From the NCBI RefSeq assembly GCF_900188275.1, contig NZ_FZNY01000001.1, positions 558,001 to 622,000 of the forward strand: DNA of 64,000 bases, read 5' to 3'. The notes under the pieces are model-generated. The model searched no databases. It worked only from the letters and a program-made list of their open reading frames with translations, and had not been told where the DNA came from. Below, piece after piece: positions 1 to 64,000 of the stretch. The position numbers and the translations under genes were made by a program. Every line of letters begins with the position of its first letter. Position 1 is the first letter of the stretch. The stretch is from Dokdonia pacifica. GTDB taxonomy: Bacteria > Bacteroidota > Bacteroidia > Flavobacteriales > Flavobacteriaceae.

Positions 1-170
1 GACTAGGAAGTGTTATTACGGATTACGCTTTCGCGAAAGCGTATAAAGGCATAATCACATCACTAGGAATTCCGGACAAGTTCATCACTCATGGCACTAC
101 CGAAGAACTGCAAGAAGAAATAGGTATTTCACCTACCCATATATCTAAAGTCATTGAAAAATATTTATAA
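1..170 (+). CDS. dxs: 1-deoxy-D-xylulose-5-phosphate synthase, C-terminal end (partial)
   Basis: Only the last 55 codons are present and the gene starts outside the window. The readable frame begins at base 3 and stops with TAA at 168-170. The tail carries LGIPDKFITHG followed by an EELQEEIGI segment, the pattern that ends the transketolase-like C-domain of DXS. This enzyme makes DXP from pyruvate and glyceraldehyde-3-phosphate in the MEP isoprenoid pathway. A full 20-bp iterated palindrome at 24-43 encodes YAFAKAY without apparent insertion relative to the family. An intrinsic terminator follows directly. The fold assignment is from family memory; I see only the tail. Confidence 0.82.
   Translation, partial: LGSVITDYAFAKAYKGIITSLGIPDKFITHGTTEELQEEIGISPTHISKVIEKYL
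24..43. repeat. Iterated palindrome, full 20-bp form, inside dxs
   Basis: A perfect TACGCTTTCGCGAAAGCGTA, read in the AFAKA frame. It is one of 21 exact-core copies in the window. Confidence 0.95.
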
Positions 171-201
171 AAAAAGGCTGGTTTAAAAAACCAGCCTTTT
201 T
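171..201. terminator. Bidirectional intrinsic terminator between dxs and the M36 peptidase gene
   Basis: The stem GGCTGGTTT (176-184) pairs with AAACCAGCC (188-196). It has an A-run on the left and a T-run on the right, so it can serve both convergent genes. Confidence 0.85.
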
Positions 202-224
202 GATATTCTATTTATTTTCTTTTC

Positions 225-3215: not shown

Positions 3216-4544
3216 CTAATGCACGTGAAGCCCCTTTAATTTTTGAAAAATACGCAAAGACTTACTGTCTGTCATAACAGATACATAGTTACACACTTTC
3301 ATTAATTCCTGATACAAAGGCATCTCTCCCCTATCTGATTCTCCAAACAGCTTTAAGACTAGCCTATCGTAATGTGTTGGTGTATTTGTAATTGCATTAC
3401 AGCGCTTATCCAGGAGTGTAGAAAGAATTTCGTAGCCAGCAATTTCTTTTTCGACCACTTCTTGGCTTTGGTAGATATTTGAAATACTAATCTTTAATAT
3501 ATCTTCTATTTGAGCTTCATATTTGGATTTATCTAATAACGCTTTCGCGAAAGCGCCCTCCAAAATAGCCTCTTCATTTTTCATAAATATAGCAACTGCT
3601 TCATCTATCAATGTTCCTATGGCCAAGGCACGCAAATATCCTACACGAGCTGCTTTTGTGGTGAGTTCATAATATTTTTTGGTATTGATATTAGGAACTA
3701 ACTTCACCATATACTCTAGCGCATACTCCTCAGAAATCAACCCTAAATTAATTCCGTCTTCAAAATCTATAATCGTATAACAAATATCATCTGCTGCTTC
3801 TACTAAGAAGGTTAAAGGGTGACGTGCATACCCTATATCATTCCCTTTTCTGGTTTGAAGCAACCCTAATTCTTCGGCTACTTCTTGAAACGATTGTTTC
3901 TCGCTTTGAAAGAAGCCAAACTTCTTATCGGCGATATGTTTTGTGGGTTTTACAGGAAGTGACTCTTTAGGATATTTCATAAAGGCACCCAAAGTTGCAT
4001 AGGATAGTCGCAACCCTCCTTCTGCACCCGGCATAGACTCTGTTAAGATCTTAAAGCCATTAGCATTTCCTTCAAAGGTGCATAAATCTTGATATTCTTT
4101 TGCTGTAAGCTCAGCAGCAAAACGCTTTCCGTTTCCATTTTTAAAATAATCCCCTATTGCTTTTTCTCCCGAATGTCCAAAGGGTGGATTTCCAATATCA
4201 TGTGCTAATGCTGCTGCTGCAACAATGGCTCCAAAATCATTAAACTGATATCCGTGCACTTCAGAAAGATGTGGATATTTTTCCAGAAGCTGCTTTCCAA
4301 CCTGCCTTCCTAAAGACCTCCCTACCACAGCTACTTCCAGACTATGGGTAAGTCGCGTATGTACAAAATCTGTTTTTGACAAAGGAATGACCTGTGTTTT
4401 ATCTTGCAAACTTCGAAATGCAGATGAAAAAATAATACGATCATAATCTACTTCAAAACCTAAGCGCGTTTCATCTTGTTCTTTTCGTAATCGTTTATTC
4501 GTATCACCATGTCTTTTAAGTGATAATAGACGTTCCCATTGCAT
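3216..4544 (-). CDS. dgt: dGTP triphosphohydrolase (HD superfamily dNTPase)
   Basis: The enzyme hydrolyses dGTP (or other dNTPs) to the nucleoside and triphosphate and so trims dNTP pools. HD-domain residues are visible in HTRLTHSLEV (first His) and ALAHDIGNPPFGHSGE (the HD pair and following His), in the first third of the protein. The open frame extends upstream to a TTG, but two adjacent ATGs (4547 and 4544) open the conserved MQWERLLSLKR-type N-terminus, so I take the ATG at 4544, giving about 442 residues. An iterated palindrome at 3540-3555 encodes GAFAKAL near the C-terminal third. A link to ribonucleotide reductase at 13.4-17.2 kb is functional only, not an operon. Confidence 0.9.
   Translation of the reverse strand: MQWERLLSLKRHGDTNKRLRKEQDETRLGFEVDYDRIIFSSAFRSLQDKTQVIPLSKTDFVHTRLTHSLEVAVVGRSLGRQVGKQLLEKYPHLSEVHGYQFNDFGAIVAAAALAHDIGNPPFGHSGEKAIGDYFKNGNGKRFAAELTAKEYQDLCTFEGNANGFKILTESMPGAEGGLRLSYATLGAFMKYPKESLPVKPTKHIADKKFGFFQSEKQSFQEVAEELGLLQTRKGNDIGYARHPLTFLVEAADDICYTIIDFEDGINLGLISEEYALEYMVKLVPNINTKKYYELTTKAARVGYLRALAIGTLIDEAVAIFMKNEEAILEGAFAKALLDKSKYEAQIEDILKISISNIYQSQEVVEKEIAGYEILSTLLDKRCNAITNTPTHYDRLVLKLFGESDRGEMPLYQELMKVCNYVSVMTDSKSLRIFQKLKGLHVH
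3540..3555. repeat. Iterated palindrome (16 bp) inside dgt
   Basis: A perfect CGCTTTCGCGAAAGCG, read as AFAKA on the minus strand. Confidence 0.95.
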
Positions 4545-4608
4545 CATAATAGTCCTATTTAATAGTTGCAAGATACGCGTTGTTACACTACTTCAACAAA
4601 CTCAACAT

Positions 4609-4672
4609 AACATTTCGCGAAATCGAACTTGTGAGATTCACGACCAAAGGGAGAGCGCAGCGTTAAAGCGTA
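4609..4672 (+). repeat. Long palindrome-headed repeat element, copy B
   Basis: It begins with ATTTCGCGAAAT (4612-4623), runs through GTGAGATTCACGACC and AAAGGGAGAG, and ends in TTAAAGCGTA (4663-4672). It aligns almost base for base with the copy at 35136-35204, but its left terminal inverted repeat has decayed. It lies between the divergent dgt and TonB receptor genes. Confidence 0.85.
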
Positions 4673-4726
4673 ATTACAGACTTCTGAATTTGGAGGAAAC
4701 ACAGAGGAAACATTAGCGCATTCCTG

Positions 4727-4744
4727 TTAACATTAATCTTACAT
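4727..4744 (+). promoter_or_regulatory. Putative PhoB-type box upstream of the TonB receptor
   Basis: TTAACAT (4727-4733) and CTTACAT (4738-4744) are direct 7-mers with a 4-bp spacer, an 11-bp period. This is the geometry of the E. coli Pho box (CTGTCAT-N4-CTGTCAT). It lies about 94 bp upstream of the ATG. A similar pair occurs upstream of the phosphate transporter. This is a motif observation only. Confidence 0.4.
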
Positions 4745-4837: not shown

Positions 4838-7618
4838 ATGAAACATTTTTTCTTTTTAACAATCGTCCTTTTTTCTCTTGCTTCTTTTGCACAGGAGAAC
4901 GGTACTATCTCTGGAACGCTTACCGATAAGGAAAGTGCCGATGGACAACCATTACCTTTTGCAAGTGTTATCATCAAAGGATCTACACAAGGATCTACTT
5001 CTGATTTTGATGGTAATTATATTATTAATAATGTTGTGCCTGGCACCTACACACTTGTTATCTCCTTTGTAGGATATGAAACAAAAGAAGTTGCCAATGT
5101 TGTTGTTGTCTCTGGACAAACCACAACAGTAAACGAGATTATAGGCGCTAGTGCAGCACAACTAGAAGAAGTTATTGTACAAGGAACAAGCTCTAAAAGA
5201 GAAAGTGTACAAGCCTTACTTGTGGAACAACAAAACGCTGTCGTTCAAAAACAAAGTATTGGTGCTGTAGACCTTTCTAATAAAGGTGTAAGTAATGCAG
5301 CTGTAGCTGTTACTAAAATCTCTGGTATTTCTAAACAAGAAGGAGGAGGAAATGTATATGTACGTGGTCTTGGAGATCGTTACCAAAACACCACTTATAA
5401 TGGACTTCCATTACCTTCTAACAATATTGATAAGAAAAACTTAGATCTAGGCCTTTTCTCTTCTGATGTGATCCAAAACATTGGTGTAAGTAAAACATAT
5501 GCAGCCAATTTTTATGGAGATTTTGCTGCTGGAAATGTAGATATTAAATCAAAAGAACACAGTGGAGACGCCTTTATCGATGTAGATTTAGGAACTACAA
5601 TCAACACAGGTTCTGTTGGAGAAAACTTTGTAAAGAGTGAAGGAACAGGATTCTTTGGATTTTATAATAGATACCAAAACAATCCGTTTGCTGTTATCTT
5701 ATCACACGGAGTAGATCCTATCGCTTCAGATGGAACTACTGGACTTTCTGGATCAATTTCTGGTGGTAAATCATGGGATATTGGAGAAGAATCAAAATTA
5801 AGTTTATTTGCGACTACTTCTTTTGGAAGCAACTATGAATACAGAAGAGGACAAGCTGCCAATTACACTTTACTTGCAAATACTATATATCCAGATTCTG
5901 AAGAGTTTGAGTACAGCCGTACAACTACAGCACTTGCAAATATTGTATATCGTATTAATGGTGACCATAAAATCAAGTTCAACTCTCTTTTCATTAACGA
6001 TGCTACCGATGAAATAGGATTCTTCGGAATAGGCGGTAATGGTCAAAACCGTAATGCCATCTTAAACACAGATCGAGGATTCTTTACTCAAAACAACCAG
6101 TTTGAGCAAGATATGATCTATGTAAACCAGATCACAGGGACAAGCCGTCTTAACGAGAAAATCAAAATAGATTACGGAGTTGGATATAATAAAGTATTAG
6201 CTCGCCAGCCAGATCGTAAACGTGTTACTCTTGAAAGATATGATCTTGCATTAGATAATGATCCATCTACAAATCCAACATTATTTAGCAATGTCGTTTT
6301 TGACAATCAACGTTATTTCCAAAATATTGATGACGATGAGATTAATGGACGTGTAAATGTAAACTACAAATCTTCAGAAAACCTTTCTTTTAATTTTGGG
6401 TATAATGGGCGTTCAAAAAAACGTTCTTTCGACAACCAACGTTTTGGATATGATATTATAGAGCCAAATACTGAAGTTACAGATGTCAATAATTTTGATG
6501 CCATCTTTAATGCAGATAATCTTGGAACAGTTTTTAACACAAGTGTCTTTAGACCTCTTGAGGGATTAGGAACAGAGAATCTTCCAGGGCAACTAGAAAA
6601 CACCTACGAAGGAGAACTTAATATACATGCAGTATATGCAGATGCAGTATATAAATATGGAGAAAAATGGACATTCTCACCAGGTTTACGTATTGAGCAA
6701 TTCAATCAAGAGATTTCCTATGATGTGATTAACCTTGCATTTAATAACCCAGGAAGCAACGAAGCATCTGAGACGTTTTTCTTACCAAGTTTAAATATTA
6801 AATATGCTTTAAAAGATGATCAAAACCTTCGTCTTTCTGTAAGTAGAACAGTATCAAATCCTGAATTTAAAGAAGTGGCGCCTTTCGTATATGAAAACGT
6901 AGTAGATCGTATAGGAGGTAATCCAGACTTATTAAATGATCCTGCTTTTTCTTCTATTATTAATGTAGATTTAAAGTATGAGTGGTTCTTTGAACGTGGA
7001 CAAATATTTTCTCTGGCCGCTTTCGCGAAACAAATTAATGATCCTGTAAACTTAGTATCTGCAAATGATGCTACAGGAACACAACGTTTCTTTAGAACTG
7101 GTGACAAAGCAGAAGTTTTTGGTTTAGAATTAGAAGCTCGTAAAGCACTTCTTCTGGATACTGAGGAAGAAAGCCTTCTTTCTGCTGGAATGAACATTAC
7201 GTATACCCATACAAACCAAGACCTTAAAGATGTTACAGGTACGTTTAATACAAACTTTGACAGAGATTCTGATGAATTACAAGGAGCATCTCCATTCTTA
7301 ATTAATGCAGATGTAAGCTACACCCCTACTTTTGGAAACTATAAGCCTAAAGCAAACCTTGTATTCTCATACTTCTCAGATCGTATTGACGCCTTAGGTT
7401 CTGGTCAACTTTCTAACATTGTAGAAAAAGGAGTACCTACTCTTGACTTTGTATGGAAAAATAATATAGGAGAGAATATAGAATTAAACCTAAGCACTAA
7501 AAACTTATTAAACCCAACTATAGAACGTATACGTGAAAACACTGTAGATGGAGATGTTGCATTATCTAGCTATAAGAGAGGTGTTAATATAGGTTTACAA
7601 TTCAAATACAAATTTTAA
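4838..7618 (+). CDS. TonB-dependent outer-membrane receptor with carboxypeptidase-D-like N-terminal domain
   Basis: A 926-residue receptor with a signal peptide (1-18, SFAQ), a CarboxypepD_reg-like beta-sandwich (about 23-105, with a DFDGNYIINNV-type motif), a plug (about 120-235, VYVRGLGDRYQNT) and a 22-strand-type barrel ending in FKYKF. It imports a ligand across the outer membrane using TonB energy. The next gene, 43 bp downstream, encodes a beta-helix lipoprotein, a likely partner. A Pho-box-like repeat upstream and the nearby PiT gene make phosphate or an organophosphate a plausible ligand, which is inference. A palindrome core at 7021-7030 encodes AAFAKQ in the barrel. Confidence 0.9.
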   Translation: MKHFFFLTIVLFSLASFAQENGTISGTLTDKESADGQPLPFASVIIKGSTQGSTSDFDGNYIINNVVPGTYTLVISFVGYETKEVANVVVVSGQTTTVNEIIGASAAQLEEVIVQGTSSKRESVQALLVEQQNAVVQKQSIGAVDLSNKGVSNAAVAVTKISGISKQEGGGNVYVRGLGDRYQNTTYNGLPLPSNNIDKKNLDLGLFSSDVIQNIGVSKTYAANFYGDFAAGNVDIKSKEHSGDAFIDVDLGTTINTGSVGENFVKSEGTGFFGFYNRYQNNPFAVILSHGVDPIASDGTTGLSGSISGGKSWDIGEESKLSLFATTSFGSNYEYRRGQAANYTLLANTIYPDSEEFEYSRTTTALANIVYRINGDHKIKFNSLFINDATDEIGFFGIGGNGQNRNAILNTDRGFFTQNNQFEQDMIYVNQITGTSRLNEKIKIDYGVGYNKVLARQPDRKRVTLERYDLALDNDPSTNPTLFSNVVFDNQRYFQNIDDDEINGRVNVNYKSSENLSFNFGYNGRSKKRSFDNQRFGYDIIEPNTEVTDVNNFDAIFNADNLGTVFNTSVFRPLEGLGTENLPGQLENTYEGELNIHAVYADAVYKYGEKWTFSPGLRIEQFNQEISYDVINLAFNNPGSNEASETFFLPSLNIKYALKDDQNLRLSVSRTVSNPEFKEVAPFVYENVVDRIGGNPDLLNDPAFSSIINVDLKYEWFFERGQIFSLAAFAKQINDPVNLVSANDATGTQRFFRTGDKAEVFGLELEARKALLLDTEEESLLSAGMNITYTHTNQDLKDVTGTFNTNFDRDSDELQGASPFLINADVSYTPTFGNYKPKANLVFSYFSDRIDALGSGQLSNIVEKGVPTLDFVWKNNIGENIELNLSTKNLLNPTIERIRENTVDGDVALSSYKRGVNIGLQFKYKF
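7021..7030. repeat. Iterated palindrome core inside the TonB receptor gene
   Basis: The core TTTCGCGAAA, with the right arm decayed (AAACAA instead of AAAGCG). It is read as AFAKQ. Confidence 0.9.
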
Positions 7619-11952: not shown

Positions 11953-11972
11953 TACGCTTTCGCGAAAGCGTA
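11953..11972. repeat. Iterated palindrome, full 20-bp form, intergenic
   Basis: A perfect TACGCTTTCGCGAAAGCGTA between the transporter terminator and the end of the convergent CPBP gene. Confidence 0.95.
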
Positions 11973-16167: not shown

Positions 16168-16177
16168 TTTCGCGAAA
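16168..16177. repeat. Iterated palindrome core in the nrdB-nrdA spacer
   Basis: TTTCGCGAAA with only its right arm (GCG) kept. The left arm is decayed. Confidence 0.9.
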
Positions 16178-18636: not shown

Positions 18637-18700
18637 TATACGCTTTCGCGAAAGCGAACTTATGAGATCCACAACCATTAGGAGTGCAAAGCATTAAAGC
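18637..18700 (+). repeat. Long palindrome-headed repeat element, copy C
   Basis: It starts TATACGCTTTCGCGAAAGCG (18637-18656), runs on through AACTTATGAGATCCACAACC and TAGGAGTGCAAAGC, and ends in ATTAAAGC. It matches the 35136 copy with about a dozen substitutions, and the right terminal repeat has partly decayed. It lies between the M28 peptidase start and the sdh terminator. Confidence 0.8.
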
Positions 18701-22441: not shown

Positions 22442-22457
22442 CGCTTTCGCGAAAGCG
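22442..22457. repeat. Iterated palindrome (16 bp), intergenic
   Basis: CGCTTTCGCGAAAGCG with TA on the left (TACGC) but GA on the right. It lies upstream of sdhC and downstream of the serine hydrolase gene. Confidence 0.95.
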
Positions 22458-23860: not shown

Positions 23861-23945
23861 ACGCCTTACCGTTTCACTCTCCCTCTGGCCGTGAACCTGC
23901 CTACCGGTAGACAGGTCTCACAGGCTCGATTTCGCGAAAGCGTAT
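23861..23945 (-). repeat. Long palindrome-headed repeat element, copy D, with nested palindrome
   Basis: Read on the minus strand it begins TACGCTTTCGCGAAATCGAG and ends CGGTAAGGCGT, following the same order as the 35136 copy. Between GAGA and TTCACG it contains 20 extra bp (23896-23915). It lies between the serine hydrolase and amidohydrolase genes. Confidence 0.85.
23896..23915. repeat. 20-bp palindrome nested in repeat copy D
   Basis: CCTGCCTACCGGTAGACAGG is palindromic with one mismatch. It interrupts the element exactly where the other three copies are continuous. Confidence 0.85.
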
Positions 23946-25429: not shown

Positions 25430-26551
25430 TTATGCAGATTGCCGTCTATATTCTTTTGGCGAAAGACCTGTATTCTTTTTAAATATTCTATAAAAAGTAG
25501 CTTCCGAATTGAACCCGCATTCTAAAGCAACTCCTAAAATAGACATATGAGACATCTTTTCACTATGAAGCATTTTCTTTACTTCTTCTACACGATATTC
25601 GTTAATAAGATCTCTAAATTTTTTATGAAAATGCGCATTGATCACTTGAGAAATTTCTTGTTGTGGCAATGATAGCTTTCGCGAAAGCTCTTGAATATTT
25701 AAGGTAGGATTTAGAAATACTTTATCTTTTTTTAATGCGTCATTAATCACTTTAACTATTTCAGTATCTCTCTGAGAAGGTGCTGTTTTTTTTAAAGTAC
25801 TGAGGTCTTTTTTTGAAGATAAGACTGCAACATCCTCCTGAAGTTTTAATTCGTAATTAGGCAATTTGTAACCTGCAATTCCTAAATAATATATAGAGAA
25901 AGCTCCAAAAAGCGAGAATATTGTCCAGTGAAGGTCCGTTATCCTATTGAGATCAAATAAAAGGTCTGCGCTATAATTAAATATTAAAAAAGCACCTATT
26001 GCTAAACACAGGAGTAATAATTGTTTGATCCATTTAAATTCTGGAAATGAACTGTCAGATATTGTATTGGAAAGCCATTCTCTATACTCCCTAAATTTTT
26101 TAAATGAAAGTATAAGATATACCACAGAAGATAACGCCGCTCCATGACTTTCTAGATCTTTTACGGGATTAAAATAGAGGCTATTTGCTATCTGATCTTT
26201 CATTACTACATCTGAAGTTCCTACTAATGAAAAATAGATAAACATTAGATATCCTTGTAGTAATATAAAAGGGATAAAGTGTATGATATGCTTTCGCGAA
26301 AAGCGAAACTCAGGATCTATCAAAGAAACCAAATACAAATACAGTAATGGGGCTATGGCCAAATCGGCGCCATTAGGAAAATACCTAAAAAAGGGAGTAT
26401 CCCAAAGATGTAATGTATGTAATAGCGGTTTGGTACTCACCCAGGAAAAAGCTAGAATTCCCAATGCCAAAAAAGGATTGCTTCGTTTATTATTTTTTGA
26501 ACGAAATAACAACACACTCATCACAACTCCTTGTGTGATTCCTATTAACAT
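25430..26551 (-). CDS. Membrane-anchored AraC-family transcriptional regulator
   Basis: A 373-residue protein with about seven hydrophobic segments in the first 240 residues and an AraC-type double helix-turn-helix at the C-terminus (about 275-370, ending CGFNSEATFYRIFKKNTGLSPKEYR). It probably senses an envelope signal and controls nearby genes such as the amidohydrolase and serine hydrolase. The first ATG is at 26551, but the upstream frame continues in plausible protein (FSLFDLL) without any ATG, GTG or TTG start before a stop, so the true start may be non-standard. Two palindrome copies lie in the gene, encoding LSRKL and FSRKH. Confidence 0.85.
   Translation of the reverse strand: MLIGITQGVVMSVLLFRSKNNKRSNPFLALGILAFSWVSTKPLLHTLHLWDTPFFRYFPNGADLAIAPLLYLYLVSLIDPEFRFSRKHIIHFIPFILLQGYLMFIYFSLVGTSDVVMKDQIANSLYFNPVKDLESHGAALSSVVYLILSFKKFREYREWLSNTISDSSFPEFKWIKQLLLLCLAIGAFLIFNYSADLLFDLNRITDLHWTIFSLFGAFSIYYLGIAGYKLPNYELKLQEDVAVLSSKKDLSTLKKTAPSQRDTEIVKVINDALKKDKVFLNPTLNIQELSRKLSLPQQEISQVINAHFHKKFRDLINEYRVEEVKKMLHSEKMSHMSILGVALECGFNSEATFYRIFKKNTGLSPKEYRRQSA
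25674..25689. repeat. Iterated palindrome (16 bp) inside the AraC-type gene, HTH region
   Basis: AGCTTTCGCGAAAGCT, perfect, read on the minus strand in the LSRKL frame just before the DNA-binding domain. The outer bases differ from the usual CGC/GCG. Confidence 0.93.
26290..26305. repeat. Iterated palindrome with a one-base insertion inside the AraC-type gene
   Basis: GCTTTCGCGAAAAGCG has the exact core at 26292-26301 plus one extra A in the right arm. It is read as FSRK at the edge of a membrane segment. Confidence 0.9.
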
Positions 26552-35135: not shown

Positions 35136-35204
35136 TATACGCTTTCGCGAAATTGAGCTTGCGAGATTCACGACCAAAGGGAGAGTGAAACGGTAAAGCG
35201 TATA
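35136..35204 (+). repeat. Long palindrome-headed repeat element, copy A (best preserved)
   Basis: A 69-bp element bounded by perfect 10-bp terminal inverted repeats, TATACGCTTT (35136-35145) and AAAGCGTATA (35195-35204). The left end contains the core TTTCGCGAAA. The interior reads through GAGATTCACGACC and AAAGGGAGAGTGAAACGG. It lies between pepP and the DUF1330 gene. Confidence 0.9.
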
Positions 35205-41033: not shown

Positions 41034-41828
41034 ATGGAGATTACACATAAAGGGAGCCGTATTTTTTATACAGATCAAGGAGAAGGCTCTCCTATTATAT
41101 TAATACACGGATTTTTAGAAAACAGCACTATGTGGGAAATCCTACTTCCATTTCTTGTCAAAAAACATCGAGTTATATGTATTGATCTTCTAGGTCATGG
41201 CAAAACAGAATGTCTAGGGTATATACATACTATGCAGGATTTTTCTGAAACTGTACATGCAGTCATTAATGAATTACACCTCAACCAAGTTATACTTATT
41301 GGACATTCTATGGGGGGATATGTAGGGATCGCTTTCGCGAAAGCGTACCCAGAAAAAGTGAATGCATTATGTCTCCTAAATTCTACCCCAGAAGCAGATC
41401 GTGAAGAACGAAAACAATTACGCCTTAGAGCTAATCAAATGGCCAAAACACAATTTGAACAATTGATACGTATGTCTTTTATTAATCTTTTTGATCCCGC
41501 TTCCAAAGAAATATATCATGATGATATTGCAGTAGCATTAGATCATGCCCTACAAACTCCAGTACAAGGATATATTGCTTCAAATGAAGGTATGCGATTA
41601 AGAGAAGACGCAACAACCTTCTGGAAAAATGCTTCTTTTAAAAGAGGTATGATCCTAGGAGAAAAAGATTGGATTATAGATGCAGATAAACAAAAAGAAA
41701 AGTTTGCTTCTTATATAGAACATTTCTCAATAATTAAAGGAGGGCATATGAGTCATATCTCAAATAGAGATGCTATGATTATGGACATTTTAAATTTCTT
41801 AGATATAACAACACATCGCATTACTTAA
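41034..41828 (+). CDS. Alpha/beta hydrolase
   Basis: A 264-residue cytosolic protein with the alpha/beta-hydrolase fold. The oxyanion HG is in LIHGFLENSTMW, the nucleophile Ser92 in GHSMGG, the acid Asp in GEKDWIIDAD and the catalytic His in KGGHMSHIS. The best general match is the menaquinone-type or esterase-like subgroup, but the substrate is not determinable. A palindrome at 41330-41345 encodes GIAFAKAYPEKV, a stretch that in this family normally reads much the same (AFAxxYPEKV). It is divergent from brnQ with only 36 bp between start codons. Confidence 0.85.
   Translation: MEITHKGSRIFYTDQGEGSPIILIHGFLENSTMWEILLPFLVKKHRVICIDLLGHGKTECLGYIHTMQDFSETVHAVINELHLNQVILIGHSMGGYVGIAFAKAYPEKVNALCLLNSTPEADREERKQLRLRANQMAKTQFEQLIRMSFINLFDPASKEIYHDDIAVALDHALQTPVQGYIASNEGMRLREDATTFWKNASFKRGMILGEKDWIIDADKQKEKFASYIEHFSIIKGGHMSHISNRDAMIMDILNFLDITTHRIT
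41330..41345. repeat. Iterated palindrome (16 bp) inside the alpha/beta hydrolase gene
   Basis: CGCTTTCGCGAAAGCG, read as AFAKA in the helix after the nucleophile elbow. Confidence 0.94.
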
Positions 41829-46183: not shown

Positions 46184-46199
46184 ATTAAGAAGAAGAAAA

Positions 46200-47618
46200 A
46201 TGAAATATTTGCTTTTTATGCTTTCGCGAAAGCGTATACTCACCCTTTTATTACTTATAACAATAACTATAAGTTGTAGCGACGAAGAGGCTGACTTACC
46301 AACAACTGTGGTTACAGATTCAGAAACAGACGATCCAGATGTTGATAACGAAACAGCATCTATCACCTTGGATTTTACAAGAGTGTATGGCGGTAGTGAA
46401 GATGATACATTTCATGATGTAACTGCAACTAATGATGGAGGTTTTATTGCGCTTGGATATTCGCAAAGTATAGATGGTGATATAACAGATAATACAAACC
46501 AAGTAAATATGTACTGGCTTGTAAAAACAGATAGTGAAGGGGCTATTCAATGGTCAAAAACCTATGGAGGTACAGATGATGATCGTGGTGAAGAAGTCAT
46601 ACAAACTTCAGATGGAGGGTATGCGATGATAGGATATAGTAGAAGTAGTGATGGTGATGTTAGTACTAACGAAGGATTTCAAGACCACTGGGTTGTAAAA
46701 TTAGATGCGCAAGGAGAAATCCAATGGGAAAAAAGTTATGGATTCCCTGGTTCCGATCAAGCTTTTTCAATTATACAAACTTCAGATGGAGGTTATTTTA
46801 CGTCAGGGTTTTTAGATGTAACCGCTTCTGGCGGTGATGGCAATGACTTTACAGTATCTGACGATAACGAAACAAGAGCCGTCTTACATGGGGTAGGTGA
46901 ATTTTGGGGACACAAATTAGATGCCAACGGGACTAAAGAATGGCGCCGTTACTTTGGAGGCACTAACAATGACAGAGCCTATGCAACCCTACAAGCCGAT
47001 GACGGAGGAATTCTTATGATAGGAGCTAGCGAAAGTAATGACTTTGATATCTCAAACTCAAAAGGAAGTTATGACTTCTGGATAGTTCGAATAGATGCTT
47101 CTGGCAATTTAGTGTGGGAACGCTCTTTTGGCGGATCAGAAATTGATATTGCATATGCCGCTACAAAAACACCAGACGGTAATTATGTAATTGCCGGAGA
47201 TACAAGAAGTAATGATGGCGATGTCACAGAATTTAATGGTAATGCCGATGTATGGGTAATTAAAATAAATGATCAAGGTACTTTACTTTGGGAAAAAACT
47301 TTAGGAGGAACAAGCTTTGATTCTGCTAGAGCTGTTGTTGCTACTACAAATGGAATTGCTATTACTGGATCATCCCGGAGTAATGATATAGATGTTACAA
47401 CTAATGGTGGTCAAAATGATATTTGGATTGCTTTATTAGATGACAATGGTGATTTACAAGATCAACGAGCCATAGGTGGAGATGGGATTGATTTTGGGTT
47501 AGGAATTGCCTCAAATAATCAAGGAGAGATCATTATAGCTGGAGAAACTCAGAGTAATACTGGAGAACTTACAAGTAATAATGGTTCTCTGGATGGTGTA
47601 TTAATAAAAATAAACTAA
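46200..47618 (+). CDS. Lipoprotein with about seven 55-residue propeller repeats
   Basis: I start at the ATG at 46200 (MKYLLFMLSRKR), giving 472 residues; the frame is open to 46146 but that overlaps the previous gene. The lipoprotein signal ends TISCSDEE (Cys near 26). About seven repeats follow, each of the form YGGSxxDxxxxVxxTxDGGFxxxGYSxSxDGDV...WxVKxDxxGxIxWxKx, suggesting a seven-bladed propeller. A palindrome at 46220-46233 encodes LSRKR, the basic n-region of the signal peptide. It is the third gene of the MbnP/MbnH-like operon, 16 bp after its neighbour. Confidence 0.83.
   Translation: MKYLLFMLSRKRILTLLLLITITISCSDEEADLPTTVVTDSETDDPDVDNETASITLDFTRVYGGSEDDTFHDVTATNDGGFIALGYSQSIDGDITDNTNQVNMYWLVKTDSEGAIQWSKTYGGTDDDRGEEVIQTSDGGYAMIGYSRSSDGDVSTNEGFQDHWVVKLDAQGEIQWEKSYGFPGSDQAFSIIQTSDGGYFTSGFLDVTASGGDGNDFTVSDDNETRAVLHGVGEFWGHKLDANGTKEWRRYFGGTNNDRAYATLQADDGGILMIGASESNDFDISNSKGSYDFWIVRIDASGNLVWERSFGGSEIDIAYAATKTPDGNYVIAGDTRSNDGDVTEFNGNADVWVIKINDQGTLLWEKTLGGTSFDSARAVVATTNGIAITGSSRSNDIDVTTNGGQNDIWIALLDDNGDLQDQRAIGGDGIDFGLGIASNNQGEIIIAGETQSNTGELTSNNGSLDGVLIKIN
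46220..46233. repeat. Iterated palindrome (14 bp) in a signal-peptide coding region
   Basis: GCTTTCGCGAAAGC followed by GTATA, read in the LSRKR frame. Confidence 0.94.
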
Positions 47619-51707: not shown

Positions 51708-51719
51708 CTTTCACGAAAG
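51708..51719. repeat. Decayed iterated palindrome
   Basis: CTTTCACGAAAG, one substitution from the core, upstream of the TauE-like gene. Confidence 0.6.
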
Positions 51720-52947: not shown

Positions 52948-54720
52948 TTAAAGGGATACCACGAGCGCCTCCAAAGACTCATTAGGTTGTATTTCTAGCT
53001 TTTTACGTAATCTCTGGCGTGCTTTTTTAACCCCTTCGGCAGAAATATTAAGCATATTTGCAATCTCTTTGGAGGTGAGATTCATCTTAAGTAATGCCAT
53101 AAGTCGGAGTTCATTTGGAGTCACACCTGGGTATTTTTCTTGAACTGTTTTGCTAAAATCGGTATGTACTTGTTCAAAATACTGAACAAAGGTGCTCCAA
53201 TTTTCTTCGTCTTTTAAATCAAAGTTTATTTTATTAATAATAGCTCTGGTATCGCAACCGCCTTGCAATTGTTCTACCTTGCCTTTAAGCTCGGCAAGGA
53301 TTTCATTTTTCTTAGCCAAGTGCAAGGTATGCGTGGTGAGTTCTTTGTTTTTATGATGCAATTCGGCATCGAGTTTTTGACGTTCGAGTGCTGTTCTTTT
53401 TACGCTTTCGCGAAAGCGTACCCAAAGCGCTCCCAATATTCCTAAAACAGCTAGTAATCCTGCTCCCAACAACCCTTTCTGTAATTTACTATTGGTTTCT
53501 TTTTCTTCAAGCAAAGCAATTTGCGCCTCTCTTTTTTCAGTTTCGTGAATCTCTTGCAACTTTTTTACTTCACGTTGTTTAGTGATCATATTCAAAGAGT
53601 CTACAAGTTCAGGAAACTTCTTCATGATCTCATAGGCTTTATCTTTTTGCCCACTTTTACCAAGGGCTACAGAGTATATTACGTGAGCTCCTAATACTTG
53701 CTCATCTAATACTTTTTTATCTTTTTCAAATAAATAAGCTTCATAGGCATAAGGGAGTGCCTCTTCTCCTCTTCCAGTTTCTATATACCCTTTTGCTAGC
53801 AATCGATTATTAAGACTAATAATGGTAGGGTCATAAATCTCTTTCACAGCTGCTAGGCATTCTTCATGAATAGGAATGCTTTTTTCATAGTTCCCTACTA
53901 TTGAATAGGCATTAGCCAATTGTGTTTTTGCGGTCCACTCAAGATTACGGCCTTCAAAAAAGGAAATTGCTTCTGGAAGTTTATCTATAACGGGTTGTAC
54001 ACTATCCATATGATTCATCGCCATACTCCAATTAATCAATGCTCTATAATAAAGTTCTTCTTGATCCTTTGAAGATTCGAGTGCATCTGCAAGTGTTTTT
54101 TTAGCTTCTTGAAAATCATAATTACTCAAATAGATATTCCCCATCGTAAAATCGATTCCTGCAACTTGCCTTTTTAATCCTGATTTTTGGGCATATCCTT
54201 TTGCCTCTGCCAATATTTCTAATGCTTCGGTAGAATTTCCCATTCTATGAAGCAAGTCTGCTTTTTGGATATACGCTTCAGTAATTGCCACATAATCCCC
54301 ACCAATAAATGCCCATTCTCTGGCTTTATCTATGGTAGGGATAATGCTATCTAGAGACCCTACACGTGCAAGGGCATAGGTTTTTTTTCGATATAATGCA
54401 GCTGTCACAATAGGATGATTATTTCCATTGGTTTGCTCAATCCCTTTTGTGAGATATGCTAAAAAATCTGGTAATTGCCCAAAGCGAGATATACTTACTC
54501 CTACTTCATGATAGGTCATTGCCAGTGTAGAATCTGGCAAGGTTGCTGCGAGTTCTAATGCTTGATCATAGGTTTTTAAACAATCTACCCCTTTTGATTT
54601 TAAGCATTCATCTCCCTGATCTATAAGAGATTTTAAATCGTCATCAAGTACTTTATAGTAATTCTGACCCCATAAAGAGACAGCACTTAACCAACAGAAA
54701 AGTATACATAGGGCTCGCAT
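52948..54720 (-). CDS. TPR-repeat transmembrane regulator with LuxR-type HTH
   Basis: A 590-residue protein with a signal peptide (1-18) and tandem TPRs over about 40-380 on the outer side. A coiled-coil segment precedes a single transmembrane helix (about 415-435, LLGAGLLAVLGILGALWV). A cytosolic coiled coil and a C-terminal LuxR-like HTH (about 530-588, TPNELRLMALLKMNLTSKEIANMLNISAEGVKKARQRLRKKL) complete it. This is a Bacteroidetes one-component architecture. It lies 34 bp downstream of the TonB receptor gene and is likely co-transcribed. A full palindrome just after the membrane helix encodes VRFRESV. Confidence 0.85.
   Translation of the reverse strand: MRALCILFCWLSAVSLWGQNYYKVLDDDLKSLIDQGDECLKSKGVDCLKTYDQALELAATLPDSTLAMTYHEVGVSISRFGQLPDFLAYLTKGIEQTNGNNHPIVTAALYRKKTYALARVGSLDSIIPTIDKAREWAFIGGDYVAITEAYIQKADLLHRMGNSTEALEILAEAKGYAQKSGLKRQVAGIDFTMGNIYLSNYDFQEAKKTLADALESSKDQEELYYRALINWSMAMNHMDSVQPVIDKLPEAISFFEGRNLEWTAKTQLANAYSIVGNYEKSIPIHEECLAAVKEIYDPTIISLNNRLLAKGYIETGRGEEALPYAYEAYLFEKDKKVLDEQVLGAHVIYSVALGKSGQKDKAYEIMKKFPELVDSLNMITKQREVKKLQEIHETEKREAQIALLEEKETNSKLQKGLLGAGLLAVLGILGALWVRFRESVKRTALERQKLDAELHHKNKELTTHTLHLAKKNEILAELKGKVEQLQGGCDTRAIINKINFDLKDEENWSTFVQYFEQVHTDFSKTVQEKYPGVTPNELRLMALLKMNLTSKEIANMLNISAEGVKKARQRLRKKLEIQPNESLEALVVSL
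53401..53420. repeat. Iterated palindrome, full 20-bp form, inside the TPR-LuxR gene
   Basis: A perfect TACGCTTTCGCGAAAGCGTA, the only copy read in the RFRES frame. It encodes the positively charged stop-transfer side of the membrane helix. Confidence 0.95.
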
Positions 54721-54754: not shown

Positions 54755-56791
54755 TTAGATTTTTACGACTACCCCACCATATCCATTAAAGCCTGGTGCA
54801 GGTTCAAAAAAGCGCCCTCCAAAAGCATTGATACGTACGTTATCTGTATATTCTTGATCGAGTAGATTATTGATTCCAATGTAGGGTTGTATGATTACAT
54901 TCTTATAGATAAAATCATACCCGCCACGTACGTTTATATTCTCGTAGCCTTCTACTTCTGCTTCATTGCTATCATTGGCATATTGCAATCCTACGATGGC
55001 TGTTTGAATTCCGGCATAAAATCCTTTTTCAGAGTGATATTGTAGGCTTATATTTCCTACGTGTTTTGGAATACCTGGCAATGCATTTCCATCAAAAGTA
55101 CCATTGGGTGTTGTAAAGTCACTGTACGTAAAATCAGAATAGGCATATGCTGCCGATACGGTCCACGCTTTCGCGAAAGCGTATACGCCTTCTACCTCAA
55201 CACCATTACGAGCTGTTTTTCCAGCATTTCTAAAGAATGTACGATCTGGAAAGGCTTCCAATTCAAAAGGCACTAAGTCATCTCGGGTATCGATTCTGAA
55301 TACAGCTACTTGGTATCGAAACGCATTTGCAAACTGCCCTTTAAATCCTATCTCATAATTGGTGGCTTTCTGCGCTTCCAGACCTTCATTAAACCCTTGA
55401 TCTCCATTTGGGTTTGCTGAAAGTTCAGATAGTGCGGGTGTTTCAAAACTTGTGGAGAAGTTGGTGTAGACATTATGTGTTTTCGCGAAAGCGTAATTCA
55501 CCCCAACACTTGGATTTACAGCATTTAATGTAATATCATCTGAGTCGTCACCATTGCTTAAAAAAGCATCATCTGCCGTGAGTTTATTGTAATCAAAACG
55601 AATCCCTCCTGTAATATACCACTTATCAATCTCTAGGTGATCTGTTATGTATATGCCTAAATTTGTAAATCGTTCTTTTTGATCTAGTGTTTGATCTCCT
55701 TGCGTTCCTTCCAGATTTCTGAAACGTTGCCTATCGTCATTTTGATAGGCAAAATCATAACCTGCTTTTAATGTGTTTTTGCCTTTGGCATAGGTAATTG
55801 AGGCGCCTTGACCTACATAATCTCTTCCCAAATCTACAATACCGCCAAACTCAAAAGGAAGCTTTCCATCAAACTGCCTATTATTATAAAATAAATAACC
55901 ATCTATGGATGTAAACTTATTTTTAATCCACGTGGTACTAATTCCAACTTTAAATTGACGTATCGTTTCCCCTGTCTCAAAAAGCACATTACGATCTCTG
56001 GCCTGTCTCCTATTTTCTTGAACAGCTTCCAGTGTTAAGCTTCCCGGATCGTCTGCTTCGGGGGAGTCACTATAGTTAAGAAGTGTTCTTATAGTTAAGC
56101 GATCGCTAATATCAAATTTTGCTTTAAAATTGGTATTTACTTGTTTGAAACCACTTTGATCTCGATATCCATCGGAAGCCACATAATTTCCATGAAATAT
56201 ATAAGTCGCATTTTCAGAATTAATTCCTCCGGTTGCTTGAAAGTTTTGGAATCCGTAAGAACCTACACTTCCCTTCCAATGAGAGAAAGGCTTCTCTACC
56301 TCATCTATGGTTTGAATATCAATCACGCCACCCGATGCATTTCCATATAAACTAGAGCTGGGTCCTTTTACTATTTCAATACGATCTATAATTCCTAATG
56401 TAAGATTATCTAATTGTCCTTGACCATCTGGTGTGGTTTCTGGAATACCATCTACTATTAATTTTATACCTCGTATTCCAAAAGCAGACCTTGCCCCAAA
56501 ACCACGTATAGAAATACGTAAATCTTGTGCAAAATTATTGGTGTTTTGCGCAAACAACCCCGGACTTTGTTGCGTAAACTCTTGTAAAGAAAGCTGTTGT
56601 CTTGTTGCGTCGTCTTGTGTTGTTTGATATACTGATACTGTAGCAGGTATCTTTTGAAGTGTACTAATGATACGAGAAGATTGTAAAAAAACAGTATCTA
56701 ATTTTTGAGATGGAATGGAATCTGTTTGACTATAACTCAAATGAATCATACACATACATAAACCAACAGTGCTAAGTAAAATCTTTTTCAA
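54755..56791 (-). CDS. TonB-dependent receptor of the iron/siderophore type
   Basis: A 678-residue protein with a signal peptide (1-21, SYSQ). A short N-terminus is followed directly by the plug (about 40-160: ATVSVYQTTQDD, RISIRGFGARSAFGIRGIKLIVDGIPETTPDGQ, IVKGPSSSLYGNASGGVIDI) and a barrel. It lacks the carboxypeptidase-like domain of the 4.8-kb receptor and resembles FecA/FyuA-like siderophore receptors. The ligand is not determined. Two palindromes in the barrel encode YAFAKAW and YAFAKTH. The downstream TPR-LuxR regulator may control it. Confidence 0.87.
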   Translation of the reverse strand: MKKILLSTVGLCMCMIHLSYSQTDSIPSQKLDTVFLQSSRIISTLQKIPATVSVYQTTQDDATRQQLSLQEFTQQSPGLFAQNTNNFAQDLRISIRGFGARSAFGIRGIKLIVDGIPETTPDGQGQLDNLTLGIIDRIEIVKGPSSSLYGNASGGVIDIQTIDEVEKPFSHWKGSVGSYGFQNFQATGGINSENATYIFHGNYVASDGYRDQSGFKQVNTNFKAKFDISDRLTIRTLLNYSDSPEADDPGSLTLEAVQENRRQARDRNVLFETGETIRQFKVGISTTWIKNKFTSIDGYLFYNNRQFDGKLPFEFGGIVDLGRDYVGQGASITYAKGKNTLKAGYDFAYQNDDRQRFRNLEGTQGDQTLDQKERFTNLGIYITDHLEIDKWYITGGIRFDYNKLTADDAFLSNGDDSDDITLNAVNPSVGVNYAFAKTHNVYTNFSTSFETPALSELSANPNGDQGFNEGLEAQKATNYEIGFKGQFANAFRYQVAVFRIDTRDDLVPFELEAFPDRTFFRNAGKTARNGVEVEGVYAFAKAWTVSAAYAYSDFTYSDFTTPNGTFDGNALPGIPKHVGNISLQYHSEKGFYAGIQTAIVGLQYANDSNEAEVEGYENINVRGGYDFIYKNVIIQPYIGINNLLDQEYTDNVRINAFGGRFFEPAPGFNGYGGVVVKI
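55165..55182. repeat. Iterated palindrome (18 bp) inside the siderophore-type receptor gene
   Basis: ACGCTTTCGCGAAAGCGT, read as YAFAKAW in a barrel strand. Confidence 0.94.
55481..55490. repeat. Iterated palindrome core inside the siderophore-type receptor gene
   Basis: TTTCGCGAAA with only one arm (GCGTA) intact, read as YAFAKTH. It is a second copy about 300 bp from the first and at a matching strand position (NYAFAKTHNVYT vs GVYAFAKAWTVSA). Confidence 0.92.
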
Positions 56792-56907: not shown

Positions 56908-56927
56908 TACGCTTTCGCGAAAGCGTA
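56908..56927. repeat. Iterated palindrome, full 20-bp form, between divergent genes
   Basis: A perfect TACGCTTTCGCGAAAGCGTA, about 117 bp from the receptor start and 127 bp from the start of the T9SS protein gene. Confidence 0.95.
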
Positions 56928-58301: not shown

Positions 58302-58320
58302 CATATTATTTAGAATCATT

Positions 58321-58650: not shown

Positions 58651-58661
58651 TAAAACTAATG

Positions 58662-60231: not shown

Positions 60232-60264
60232 TTACTAAACCTATAACCATTTAGCTCAAAAACC

Positions 60265-61140
60265 ATGAAAAAGATAATCACATTAATAGCTGTTGCAATA
60301 GCTATAATAGCATGTAAAGAATCTTCTACTGAGGATAAGCAGGTTTCTGAAGAGGTTAAAACTCCAGCAAAACCAGCTGTAGCATTATATACCTTTAATG
60401 GAGGCTCTGTAGGAGCAAATGATTTAAATCTTTTTGCTCAAGGAGAAACTTATAAAGGAACATCTAAACAGCTAGTTGATGCTTTTTATGTAATAAAGCA
60501 CCCTAATGGTGTTTTGTTATGGGATACAGGTTTACCTGAAGGTCTTGTAGGGCAAGAACCCTATACAACTCCTGATGGGGCTTTTACAATTGCTCGTAAA
60601 GATTCTATATTAAATCAATTAGCTACTATTGGAATTACGAAAGATGATATAGATTATATCGCGTTCTCTCATATTCATTTTGATCATACAGGTGCTGCAA
60701 ACCATTTTGCTGCATCAAAATGGCTAGTACAAAAACCTGAATATAATTTTGCGATAAGTGAAGAAATAAAAGGGAATGGATTTTATGCCCCGGACACATT
60801 TAAAGAACTTACCAATGTAATTGGACTTTCTGGAGATCATGATGTATTTGGTGATGGTAGCGTTATCATAAAATCAATGCCTGGTCATACTCCTGGTCAC
60901 CAAGTTCTTTTTATTGATTTACCAGAACATGGCCCAACGTTATTATCTGGAGACATGTACCACTTCCAAGAAAATCGAGATGGAAAAGTGATTCCTGGAT
61001 TTAACCATGACCTTGAACAAAGCAAAACTGCGATTGCTGATTTTGAAGCTTTCGCGAAAGCAAAAAAAGCCAAAGTATATATACAACATGAGCCTGCAGA
61101 CTTTGTTAAGATGCCTGTAGCTCCTAAAGCACTTAACTAA
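60265..61140 (+). CDS. Lipoprotein metallo-beta-lactamase-fold hydrolase, AHL-lactonase-like
   Basis: A 291-residue protein with a lipoprotein signal (AIIAC, Cys near 17). The metal site is HIHFDH in FSHIHFDHTGAANHF, with PGHTPGH, LSGDMYH and a final His in IQHEP. The best resemblance is to the N-acyl-homoserine lactonase branch of the MBL superfamily; the true substrate is unknown. It sits 33 bp after sufB on the same strand, so it is transcribed with Fe-S assembly genes although its product is an envelope protein. A palindrome at 61048-61061 encodes EAFAKAK. Confidence 0.86.
   Translation: MKKIITLIAVAIAIIACKESSTEDKQVSEEVKTPAKPAVALYTFNGGSVGANDLNLFAQGETYKGTSKQLVDAFYVIKHPNGVLLWDTGLPEGLVGQEPYTTPDGAFTIARKDSILNQLATIGITKDDIDYIAFSHIHFDHTGAANHFAASKWLVQKPEYNFAISEEIKGNGFYAPDTFKELTNVIGLSGDHDVFGDGSVIIKSMPGHTPGHQVLFIDLPEHGPTLLSGDMYHFQENRDGKVIPGFNHDLEQSKTAIADFEAFAKAKKAKVYIQHEPADFVKMPVAPKALN
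61048..61061. repeat. Iterated palindrome (14 bp) inside the MBL-fold gene
   Basis: GCTTTCGCGAAAGC, read as EAFAKAK. Confidence 0.93.
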
Positions 61141-61148
61141 TACAACCT

Positions 61149-61568: not shown

Positions 61569-61601
61569 ACAAGCCTGAAACAAAAAGTAATAAAAGACAC
61601 T

Positions 61602-62351: not shown

Positions 62352-62799
62352 AAGTTCCAAGTCTAAAGTTTAAATGGCTACAGTTAAACGTTTTGAAGAT
62401 TTAAGAATATGGCAAGATGCACATGCATTAAACAAAGAGATTATTCTGATTGCTAAATCAACAAAACTAAAGGACAACTTTAAACTTAAAGACCAAATTT
62501 GTAGTTCTGCTGGATCCATTATGGACAATATAGCTGAAGGTTTTGAACGGGATGGAAATTTAGAATTTAGACAATTTTTAGCTATTGCTAAAGGTTCGGC
62601 AGGAGAAACAAGATCTCAGTTATATAGATTATTAGACTGGGAATATATAAATGAAATGACTTTTGAAAAATTAATTACTGATTGCGAATACTTAAGTAAA
62701 CGTATATCTAACTTCATAAGTTATCTCAATAAAAAAGATTACAAAGGAACAAAATTTAAGAGTTAACGCTTTTAAGCGTGAAACCTTAAACTTGAAACC
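62352..62799 (+). mobile_element. Putative IVP-type cassette flanked by inverted repeats
   Basis: The four-helix-bundle gene is bounded by AAGTTCCAAGTCTAAAGTTT (62352-62371) and CCTTAAACTTGAAACC (62784-62799). The second is close to the reverse complement of the first (GTTnCAAGT...TTTAA). The cassette interrupts the otherwise contiguous sufC-sufD pair. Mobility is inferred, not shown. Confidence 0.45.
62374..62766 (+). CDS. Four-helix-bundle protein (23S rRNA intervening-sequence type)
   Basis: A 130-residue protein of the S23/IVP family. It shows FEDLRIWQDAHALNKEI, SSAGSIMDNIAEGFERDGNLEFRQFLAIAKGSAGETRSQLYRLLDWEYI and the final helix. Such genes were first seen in rRNA intervening sequences and also occur scattered, and with diversity-generating retroelements as avd. 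Its biochemical role is uncertain. It lies between sufC and sufD with 22 bp on the left and 40 bp on the right, flanked by inverted repeats. Confidence 0.88.
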   Translation: MATVKRFEDLRIWQDAHALNKEIILIAKSTKLKDNFKLKDQICSSAGSIMDNIAEGFERDGNLEFRQFLAIAKGSAGETRSQLYRLLDWEYINEMTFEKLITDCEYLSKRISNFISYLNKKDYKGTKFKS

Positions 62800-62806
62800 A
62801 AAAAAT

Positions 62807-64000
62807 ATGAGTTTAAAAGATAAATTAGTAAGTTCACATATCGTTTTTCAAGATAGTCTTGATCCAGACTCTCCTATATATGATGTGCGTGGTAATGCCA
62901 TAAAAACATTTGAAGCAGAAGGCTTTCCTTCAAAAAAGGATGAAGCATGGAAATATACATCGCTTAACAGCATCTTGAAGAAAGACTACAATATCTTTCC
63001 AACTAAAAAATCGACATTAGATTTTAAAGATGTAGAGCATTATTTTATCAATGATATAGACACTTATAATATCGTTTTTGTAGATGGTATTTTTAATGCA
63101 CACTTATCATCTACCACACATGATGGTATTGATGTATGTACTATGAATTCTGCACTTACAAAGTCTAAGTATCAACAAATCATTGATGTATACTTTAATA
63201 AAATTGCAAAAGAAGAGAGTTTAACATCGTTAAACACTGCCTATGCTAGAGATGGTGCTTACATCTATATCCCAAAAGGAAAAGTAGCAGATAAGCCTAT
63301 TCAGATTATTCATTTTGCAACAGGATCACAAGAAGCATCCCTTTTACAGCCTCGCAACCTTATTGTTGCCGAAGAAAATACAGAAGTACAGATTATAGAG
63401 CGTCATCAGAGTCTATCCGATAGTCCTACGTTTACAAATTCTGTTACCGAAGTATATGCTGCAAAACGTGCCATTGTAGATTATTATAAGATCCAAAATG
63501 ATAAGCTAGATGCTTCTCTAGTAGATACTACAGAAATAGAACAACACGGAGAGAGTATTGTTTCTGTTCATACTTTTTCATTAGGAGGGAATATTACACG
63601 TAATAATCTTAACTATTATCAAAAAGGAGAACGTATAGATTCTATCTTAAAAGGAGTAACACTTATAGAGGGAAAGCAACATGTAGATCACAATACGCTC
63701 GTTCATCATATAGAACCAAATTGCGAATCTCATCAAGATTACAAAGGTATCTTTGCAGAGAATGCAACAGGTGTTTTTAATGGAAAAGTTGTTGTAGAAA
63801 AAGAAGCACAAAAAACAAACGCCTATCAATCTAACAATAATATCCTGATAGATGATAAAGCGACTATCAACTCAAAACCTCAACTAGAGATTTTTGCAGA
63901 TGATGTACGTTGTTCACACGGTTGTACTATTGGACAACTGGATGAAAGTGCCTTATTCTATTTACAATCAAGAGGAATTGCAAAGAAAGAAGCAAGAGCA
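62807..64000 (+). CDS. sufD: Fe-S cluster assembly protein SufD (partial, cut by window end)
   Basis: It starts at the ATG at 62807 (MSLKDKLVSSHIVFQ), and 398 codons are visible before the window ends. SufD-type features are AEGFPSKKDEAWKYTSLNSIL near the start, a parallel beta-helix core (EEENTEVQIIERHQS-like strands), and the conserved late stretch DVRCSHGCTIGQLDESALFYLQSRGI. It forms the SufBC2D scaffold with sufB and sufC. The start codon follows the flanking repeat of the IVP cassette by only 7 bp. Confidence 0.95.
   Translation, partial: MSLKDKLVSSHIVFQDSLDPDSPIYDVRGNAIKTFEAEGFPSKKDEAWKYTSLNSILKKDYNIFPTKKSTLDFKDVEHYFINDIDTYNIVFVDGIFNAHLSSTTHDGIDVCTMNSALTKSKYQQIIDVYFNKIAKEESLTSLNTAYARDGAYIYIPKGKVADKPIQIIHFATGSQEASLLQPRNLIVAEENTEVQIIERHQSLSDSPTFTNSVTEVYAAKRAIVDYYKIQNDKLDASLVDTTEIEQHGESIVSVHTFSLGGNITRNNLNYYQKGERIDSILKGVTLIEGKQHVDHNTLVHHIEPNCESHQDYKGIFAENATGVFNGKVVVEKEAQKTNAYQSNNNILIDDKATINSKPQLEIFADDVRCSHGCTIGQLDESALFYLQSRGIAKKEARA

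Follow-up and report, generated by a model that had tools for sequence, protein, structure and literature searches.

Results

Copies of a palindrome in a 64-kb stretch of Dokdonia pacifica

The stretch of Dokdonia pacifica DNA analysed here (64,000 nucleotides of contig NZ_FZNY01000001.1, hereafter the window) holds, among others, sdhB and sdhC, two ribonucleotide reductase genes and genes for TonB-dependent receptors, and within and between these genes runs a 10-bp palindrome, TTTCGCGAAA, which is the subject of this study (Table 1). Twenty-one exact copies were found, one per 3.05 kb, all of them at the positions listed in a preliminary description of the sequence, which had put the density at about one per 3 kb. 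The four copies that it extended to a full 20-mer, the decayed copy that it placed near 51713 (TTTCACGAAA) and its division into 13 copies in genes and eight between them were recovered as well; the division follows a list of open reading frames (ORFs), in which the copy at 29 is scored as coding in an inferred ORF cut by the window edge. The 14-mer GCTTTCGCGAAAGC is reached by 13 and the 16-mer CGCTTTCGCGAAAGCG by 10 of the 21 copies. At the GC content of the window (35.1%), 0.05 exact copies are expected under a first-order and 0.01 under a third-order Markov model, both fitted with the motif masked; the earlier estimate from simple base composition was about 0.1. With at most one mismatch, 24 words were counted against a shuffle mean of 1.75, and none of 100 shuffles was as high. 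TCGCGA occurs 21 times in the window, every time within the 10-mer.

Table 1. Copies of the palindrome and of the joined inserts in the window, with their state in related genomes (G numbers)
Feature	Position	Strand	Related genomes
TTTCGCGAAA in full 20-mer (24-43), coding in edge-cut ORF (inferred)	29..38		intact in G014; TTTTGCAAAA in G013
Copy in HD-domain gene 3216-4571	3543..3552		intact in G014, G004; not in G013, G016
Intergenic copy followed by 42-bp insert (4623-4664)	4613..4622		uninterrupted palindrome in G014
Copy in TonB-dependent receptor gene	7021..7030		not intact in G013, sole relative aligned there
Intergenic copy in full 20-mer (11953-11972)	11958..11967		two copies flank 1174 extra bases in G014
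Intergenic copy between two ribonucleotide reductase genes	16168..16177		intact in G014, G016; not in G013
Intergenic copy downstream of sdhB, then diverged insert copy	18644..18653
Intergenic copy upstream of sdhC	22445..22454		present in G014
Intergenic copy with insert on minus-strand side	23930..23939
Copy in AraC-type regulator gene	25677..25686		intact in G014
Second copy in same AraC-type regulator gene as 25677	26292..26301		intact in G014
Copy in sortilin/BNR-repeat gene	30695..30704		intact in G014, G015, G004, G016 (beside 24-bp insertion); not in G013
Copy near start of same sortilin/BNR-repeat gene as 30695 (signal-peptide region by reading, no prediction)	32975..32984		intact in G014, G015, G013
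Intergenic copy with 42-bp insert and AAA repeat	35143..35152		empty site in G014
Copy in alpha/beta hydrolase gene	41333..41342		GCTTTCGCGAAAGC identical in G014, G013, G016, G004
Copy near start of gene 46146-47618	46222..46231		intact in G014, G013, G016
Copy in full 20-mer (53401-53420), within TPR-repeat gene (LuxR-type match weak and below cut-off)	53406..53415
Copy in TonB-dependent receptor gene	55169..55178		intact in G014; not in G013, G016
Second copy in same receptor gene as 55169	55481..55490		intact in G014, G013, G016, G004
Intergenic copy in full 20-mer (56908-56927)	56913..56922
Copy in metallo-beta-lactamase-fold gene	61050..61059		intact in G014, G016, G004; not in G013
Decayed copy TTTCACGAAA	51709..51718
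42-bp insert within palindrome, then repeated AAA	35153..35194	+	empty site in G014
42-bp member of insert family	4623..4664	+	bare palindrome in G014
Diverged insert-family member	18654..18695	+
62-bp insert-family member	23868..23929	-

Distribution among Flavobacteriaceae

The abundance reported for the window extends to the genome and to its relatives; the refuting outcome named in the preliminary description, counts falling to chance level beyond the window, was not borne out. TTTCGCGAAA occurs 1195 times in the 5.52-Mb D. pacifica genome, against 15 occurrences of the reversed word, and 903 copies of the 14-mer were counted; at one copy per 4.6 kb the genome as a whole is less densely covered than the window. 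Sets of stretches from seven genomes (744 kb) hold 221 copies, of which 182 reach the 14-mer and 131 the 16-mer, compared with 22 for the next commonest palindromic 10-mer. All 18 Dokdonia genomes examined carry the palindrome (481-1195 copies), at a density of 154-317 per Mb where completeness is at least 99% (12 genomes, sizes rounded), and two further Flavobacteriaceae genera, g11 and g210, have 559-700 copies. In a family-wide draw of 397 genomes, high counts (559-1195) were confined to g1 (2 drawn), g11 (3) and g210 (1), the other 391 having at most 34 copies each. Only G000 had more than four copies of the 14-mer among 198 genomes drawn across the class, a draw that lacks g11 and g210. 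Four copies lie within 11.6 kb at the Dokdonia sdhA locus, and none was found in 79 named loci of other Flavobacteriaceae and Bacteroidota (1.52 Mb around sdhA). The near relative g164 has few copies, and the 16-mer is present at low counts (3-13) in G184, G116, G326, G091, G376 and G435. A search for alternate palindromes in five other genera (80 kb each, the G141 and G435 stretches with masked N runs) gave none that stood out. The idea that copy number tracks core-genome size was dropped, as density also differs by clade.

The three carrier genera are not grouped in the SdhA tree. In the RpoB tree g1 is placed with g210 (support 93/83), and a clade of the carriers alone is rejected (p of the approximately unbiased test 0.025). 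In the best RpoB tree the carriers share a branch of weak support (46/25) with G184, thus a single origin of the palindrome with loss in g164 is possible on these phylogenies.

Two side observations concern counts in individual genomes. The Dokdonia species G013, with 663 copies in 4.3 Mb, has about half the density of most. In the other-genus genomes G116, G326, G302 and G091, 1-13 full 16-mers are present, each listed copy lying in an open frame, and at three of four loci in these genomes (L401, L402, L404 and L405) the flanks read CCGC...GCGG.

The conserved unit and its conservation in place

Going outwards from the core in either direction, 173 Dokdonia sites show preferences for G (0.91), C (0.91), G (0.78), T (0.63) and A (0.68), beyond which the signal fades. 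The outer flank differs in g11, where GCG is followed mostly by A/G/T, A and A, and in g210 little is marked beyond GCTTTCGCGAAAGC.

Alignment of related genomes showed that the 10-mer is retained in place far more often than random 10-mers. At 77% identity (G006-G016), 21 of 23 copies were intact, and 21 of 22 in the reverse comparison, against 10% of random 10-mers. The corresponding figures were 62/63 against 39.5% for G006-G008 (89% identity), 31/34 against 40% for G008-G009 (89.5%), and 31/34 for G006-G009, where at 94% identity random 10-mers already reach 60%. For the window itself, 16 of 17 copies were intact in G014 (85% identity, random 25%) and six of eight in G016 (74%, random 7%); in G281-G433 the single comparable copy was intact. 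Control words spelling similar F-A-K codons (frame unverified) were intact in 0/15 and 1/15 cases in G006-G016 and in 21/43 in G006-G008. An artefact of codon use was rejected on this ground, given that at 77% identity these words survived in only 0-1 of 15 cases.

Conservation in G006-G016 stays at 0.91-1.00 for positions 1-8 from the centre and is near background from position 9 onward, and more closely related pairs keep a plateau as far as about position 7. The conserved unit is therefore 14-16 bp, CGCTTTCGCGAAAGCG at its widest; we count the 10-mer as the invariant part and the 14-16 bp block as its conserved surroundings. Losses in G013 fall mainly on the second base from the centre, and the lost sites often resemble TTTTGCAAAA.

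Genomic position, spacing and near-copies

By crude ORF calls, 131 of the 221 copies in the seven-genome set are coding and 90 intergenic (59% coding). As intergenic DNA makes up 11% of the sequence, density is 5.5-fold higher there (1.09 per kb, compared with 0.20 in coding DNA). Sites number 50 in tandem gaps (41.7 kb), 20 in divergent gaps (18.8 kb) and 19 in convergent gaps (15.9 kb), showing no orientation preference. Coding copies occur in all three codon phases (72, 32 and 27, the AFAK type being most frequent) and in all gene quintiles (33, 30, 15, 25 and 28). A promoter, operator or terminator role was rejected, with no tie to gene starts or ends and no preference for gap orientation.

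The copies are quasi-regularly spaced. The pooled coefficient of variation (CV) was 0.54 (n=214), against 0.90-0.98 in single-stretch nulls, and 11 spacings of the pool fell below a quarter of the mean where 47 were expected. None of 5000 simulations reached the observed regularity in G006, G016, G281 and G004, and P was about 0.01 in the window, G014 and G433. DNA present in one of two relatives often has copies too, as in a 26-kb segment of G014 with six inside it or at its edge.

Near-copies are few. One-mismatch words numbered 20 in Dokdonia against 10-16 expected (544 kb with 174 exact copies; observed/expected 1.3-2.1) and five in g11 against 2-7 (0.7-2.2). The near-miss half-site ATTCGCG was seen three times, compared with 20-49 times for each of the other seven A/T triplets before CGCG.

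One carrier stands apart in these respects: G230, with a GC content of 45.6%, combines uneven spacing with an excess of one-mismatch words, perhaps a state of building or decay.

Viral contigs

A scan of IMG/VR for the 16-mer returned 41 stretches from 30 contigs. Counting eight more stretches of the same contigs, 22 of the 30 have at least two 10-mers in the part fetched, one per 2.8-10.3 kb, and a GC content of 0.36-0.47; the remaining eight, with a single copy and a GC content of 0.48-0.67, look like chance. In PHROG scans, 40 proteins taken from ten of these 22 contigs yielded terminase, portal, head protease, major head, tail sheath, baseplate hub and tape measure proteins, as well as proteins of integrase, Mu-type transposition and replication type; a single contig of the ten matched function-unassigned families only. 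Copies lie within the terminase and portal ORFs of one viral contig and within the head-protease ORF of another. Between phages of 63-72% identity, 36 of 56 comparisons were intact against 3% of random 10-mers, and between those of 85-97% identity 44 of 50 against 65%, in comparisons that reuse the same sites and come from stretches selected for containing the motif.

Inserts and flanked extra DNA

Four copies of the palindrome in the window are joined to an element of 42 or 62 bp. G014 has an empty site at two of the four (4613 and 35143); at 35143 the window carries 42 bases and a repeated AAA inside a palindrome that is uninterrupted in the relative. A repeat module, SDR5, is likewise cited in PMC4390886 as inserting precisely into HIP1, the highly iterated palindrome (HIP) of cyanobacteria.

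Among 22 gaps between paired stretches, copies stood on either side of two and at one edge of another four. Recombination at the motifs is a lead only, because a conserved block at a gap edge biases such counts. Extra DNA lies between two copies where the relative has one at G006:C1:1750531-1753966 (140531-143966 of the joined stretch), and G014 likewise has extra DNA between two copies, compared with the single copy at 11958 of the window.

Candidate readers and methyltransferases

The preliminary description had likened the palindrome to HIP1 or to a repetitive extragenic palindromic (REP) system with its REP-associated tyrosine transposase (RAYT), and had pointed to a methylase or a ParB-type protein as candidate partners. 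The C5 methyltransferase family PF00145 was absent from 9 of 16 carrier genomes (present in 7) and the N4/N6 family PF01555, above cut-off, from 14 (present in 2), eight carriers having neither above cut-off; with the two families not conserved among carriers, a link to C5 or N4/N6 methyltransferases was rejected. The likeness to HIP1 thus stands for an iterated palindrome in and between genes that is limited to certain genomes, and fails for the associated methyltransferases of the two families searched. ParB_N (PF02195) was found in all 30 genomes, carriers and non-carriers alike, with a single match in 14 of 16 carriers and 11 of 14 non-carriers, and in the absence of any carrier-specific paralogue a ParB/Noc-type reader was rejected.

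REP elements and bacterial interspersed mosaic elements (BIMEs) are also iterated palindromes, which are extragenic and tied to Y1_Tnp. In contrast, most of the copies here are coding, and 11 of 16 carriers gave no Y1_Tnp match, hence the proposed RAYT/REP relationship found no backing.

As an observation apart, G230 has an N4/N6 methyltransferase above cut-off (L318, G230:C1:860981-861964), of which none was found in 12 Dokdonia genomes tested.

Discussion

The iteration of TTTCGCGAAA in Dokdonia and two further genera is a robust and specific observation. The best reading of it is that the palindrome is functional and individually selected, neither a mobile repeat nor a by-product of codon use. 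Its exact core, its conservation in place and its even spacing in most stretches suggest that it is probably read by an agent acting at a scale of a few kb on nearly all resident DNA. On the sequence evidence, we consider it rather probable that the palindrome is a selected dimer site, required at intervals of a few kb: the symmetry and graded flanks point to a dimeric DNA-binding protein that would read the double strand, and the even spacing with few near-copies suggests that the cell may need a strong site every few kb along its resident DNA.

Within that class, we tentatively propose, as a possibility well short of an even chance, that a dimeric host protein reads the palindrome in double-stranded DNA as a self-address, by which DNA is maintained or recognised as self; the reader might belong, for instance, to a system of repair, nuclease control or silencing. 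Since the palindrome is also carried by phages and by much of the DNA that only one of two relatives has, such an intracellular address is likelier than gene regulation. DNA without a copy every few kb would be poorly tolerated or maintained, resident chromosomes would keep about one per 3 kb, acquired DNA would tend to originate in other carriers, and temperate phages, by retaining copies within their structural genes, might be taken for self. If true, this would be a sequence-based scheme of self-recognition imitated by phages.

Several results weigh against the selected site and its address version. Only 5 of 12 aligned window sites are intact in G013 (77% identity, random 11%), and all conservation counts come from aligned stretches (5-183 kb per pair), where the conserved block may itself aid alignment. 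G230, which was omitted from the spacing pool, is unevenly spaced (CV 0.85, P 0.43) and has a halo of 17 one-mismatch words against 4-6 expected (observed/expected 2.9-4.1), while the pooled spacings behind the CV of 0.54 are not independent because related stretches share sites. No copy lies inside two segments that G006 alone possesses (4.2 and 2.8 kb), nor in the 35.7 and 34.0 kb read of two phages of Persicivirga sp. IMCC12024, a host that may or may not carry the motif. No reader protein was found among the families searched (PF00145, PF01555, Y1_Tnp and ParB_N), and even spacing and non-coding excess are described likewise for DNA uptake sequences (PMC1939737).

Alternatively, the sites might serve, at intervals of a few kb, as anchors for a protein of nucleoid organisation or segregation, phages carrying them as long-term prophages. 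This architectural role, itself a selected dimer site so that its chances overlap with those of that class, is conceivable, if doubtful. It fits the even spacing and the indifference to gene orientation, and some motif-rich viral contigs do encode an integrase or a Mu-type transposition protein; on the other hand, a site-free prophage should matter little to the chromosome, yet the phage copies are kept even at 63-72% identity, and no candidate protein is at hand.

The uptake signal sequences and DNA uptake sequences (USS/DUS) of Pasteurellaceae and Neisseria, as described in PMC1939737, resemble the palindrome in number and presence in genes as well as in the two properties just named, and natural competence is described in Riemerella (PMC7965970). 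A competence receptor preferring palindrome-bearing DNA, with transformation driving and repairing the copies as in Haemophilus and Neisseria, would also account for the one-mismatch halo of G230. Over-representation with even spacing, as expected of such a signal, is found here, except that in G230 the palindrome is over-represented and uneven. Nevertheless, we regard an uptake signal as unlikely: known USS/DUS are not palindromes, their excess of one-mismatch words (about 3-fold and 5.8-fold in PMC1939737, with different expectation models) exceeds the values found here outside G230, and phages, which enter by injection, carry the palindrome in core genes. The sharing with phages therefore favours an intracellular role over uptake.

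The palindrome belongs to the same class of phenomenon as HIP1 and the alternate HIPs, being over-represented genome-wide, iterated in some related genomes and not in others, and even entered by an inserted element; as cyanobacterial HIPs are tied to methyltransferases in PMC4390886, it might be made and kept by a DNA methyltransferase with methylation-directed repair. HIPs differ in being denser (1000-2000 per Mb in PMC4390886) and GC-rich (75-100%, against 40% for the present 10-mer and 62.5% for the 16-mer), while the Dokdonia palindrome has an exact core of 10 bp within a block of 14-16 bp, is evenly spaced and phage-borne, and lacks a conserved methyltransferase of the two families searched, a search that left Dam-like, type I and Eco57I-like families outside. 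The usual methyltransferase sites are also shorter than a graded palindrome of 14-16 bp, and we hold a HIP1-type origin to be quite unlikely.

A Chi-like site working in both directions, at which a nuclease of the RecBCD/AddAB type would stop or be redirected, appears more improbable again. Its density would suit, as E. coli Chi is over-represented at one per 5 kb on average (PMC8022716), and a palindrome would work from both sides. However, E. coli Chi is described there as a short, non-palindromic and strand-polarised 8-nt site, while the Dokdonia word, being palindromic, cannot be polarised. A single-strand reader needs only one strand's word, yet both halves are conserved, and outside the motif the half-word CGCTTTCG (0-5 per stretch) is no commoner than its reversed word (0-4), a comparison set aside for words whose reversal changes the CpG content.

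A RAYT/REP-like or other mobile repeat spreading by insertion is hardly credible. Relatives without the copy align gaplessly at five window sites (29, 3543, 7021, 55169 and 61050), which largely refutes such an origin, coding copies take all three phases and most carriers gave no Y1_Tnp match; in its favour are the two gaps with extra DNA between copies and the 42-bp element sitting in the palindrome.

A further comparable case is an 18-nt palindrome of Caldithrix abyssi, which is conserved, rather uniformly spread and without assigned function in PMC5317091; it is unrelated in sequence and differs there in having 38 exact copies, mostly intergenic, with a strand-specific centre. Searches of the open-access full-text literature (10-mer, 12- and 14-mers, Dokdonia with palindrome, and related terms) returned no description of the present palindrome, in agreement with the preliminary description, which knew of none. 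The role of HIP1 in cyanobacteria is still unsettled according to PMC4390886. Dokdonia, a lineage unrelated to cyanobacteria, offers a clean signal (a long symmetric unit, even spacing, sharing with phages and a near relative in which copies are few), so that the question can be put to the test.

A minor feature of the window is found at 43676-45894, where two neighbouring genes share blocks that are 75-81% identical, likely owing to tandem duplication.

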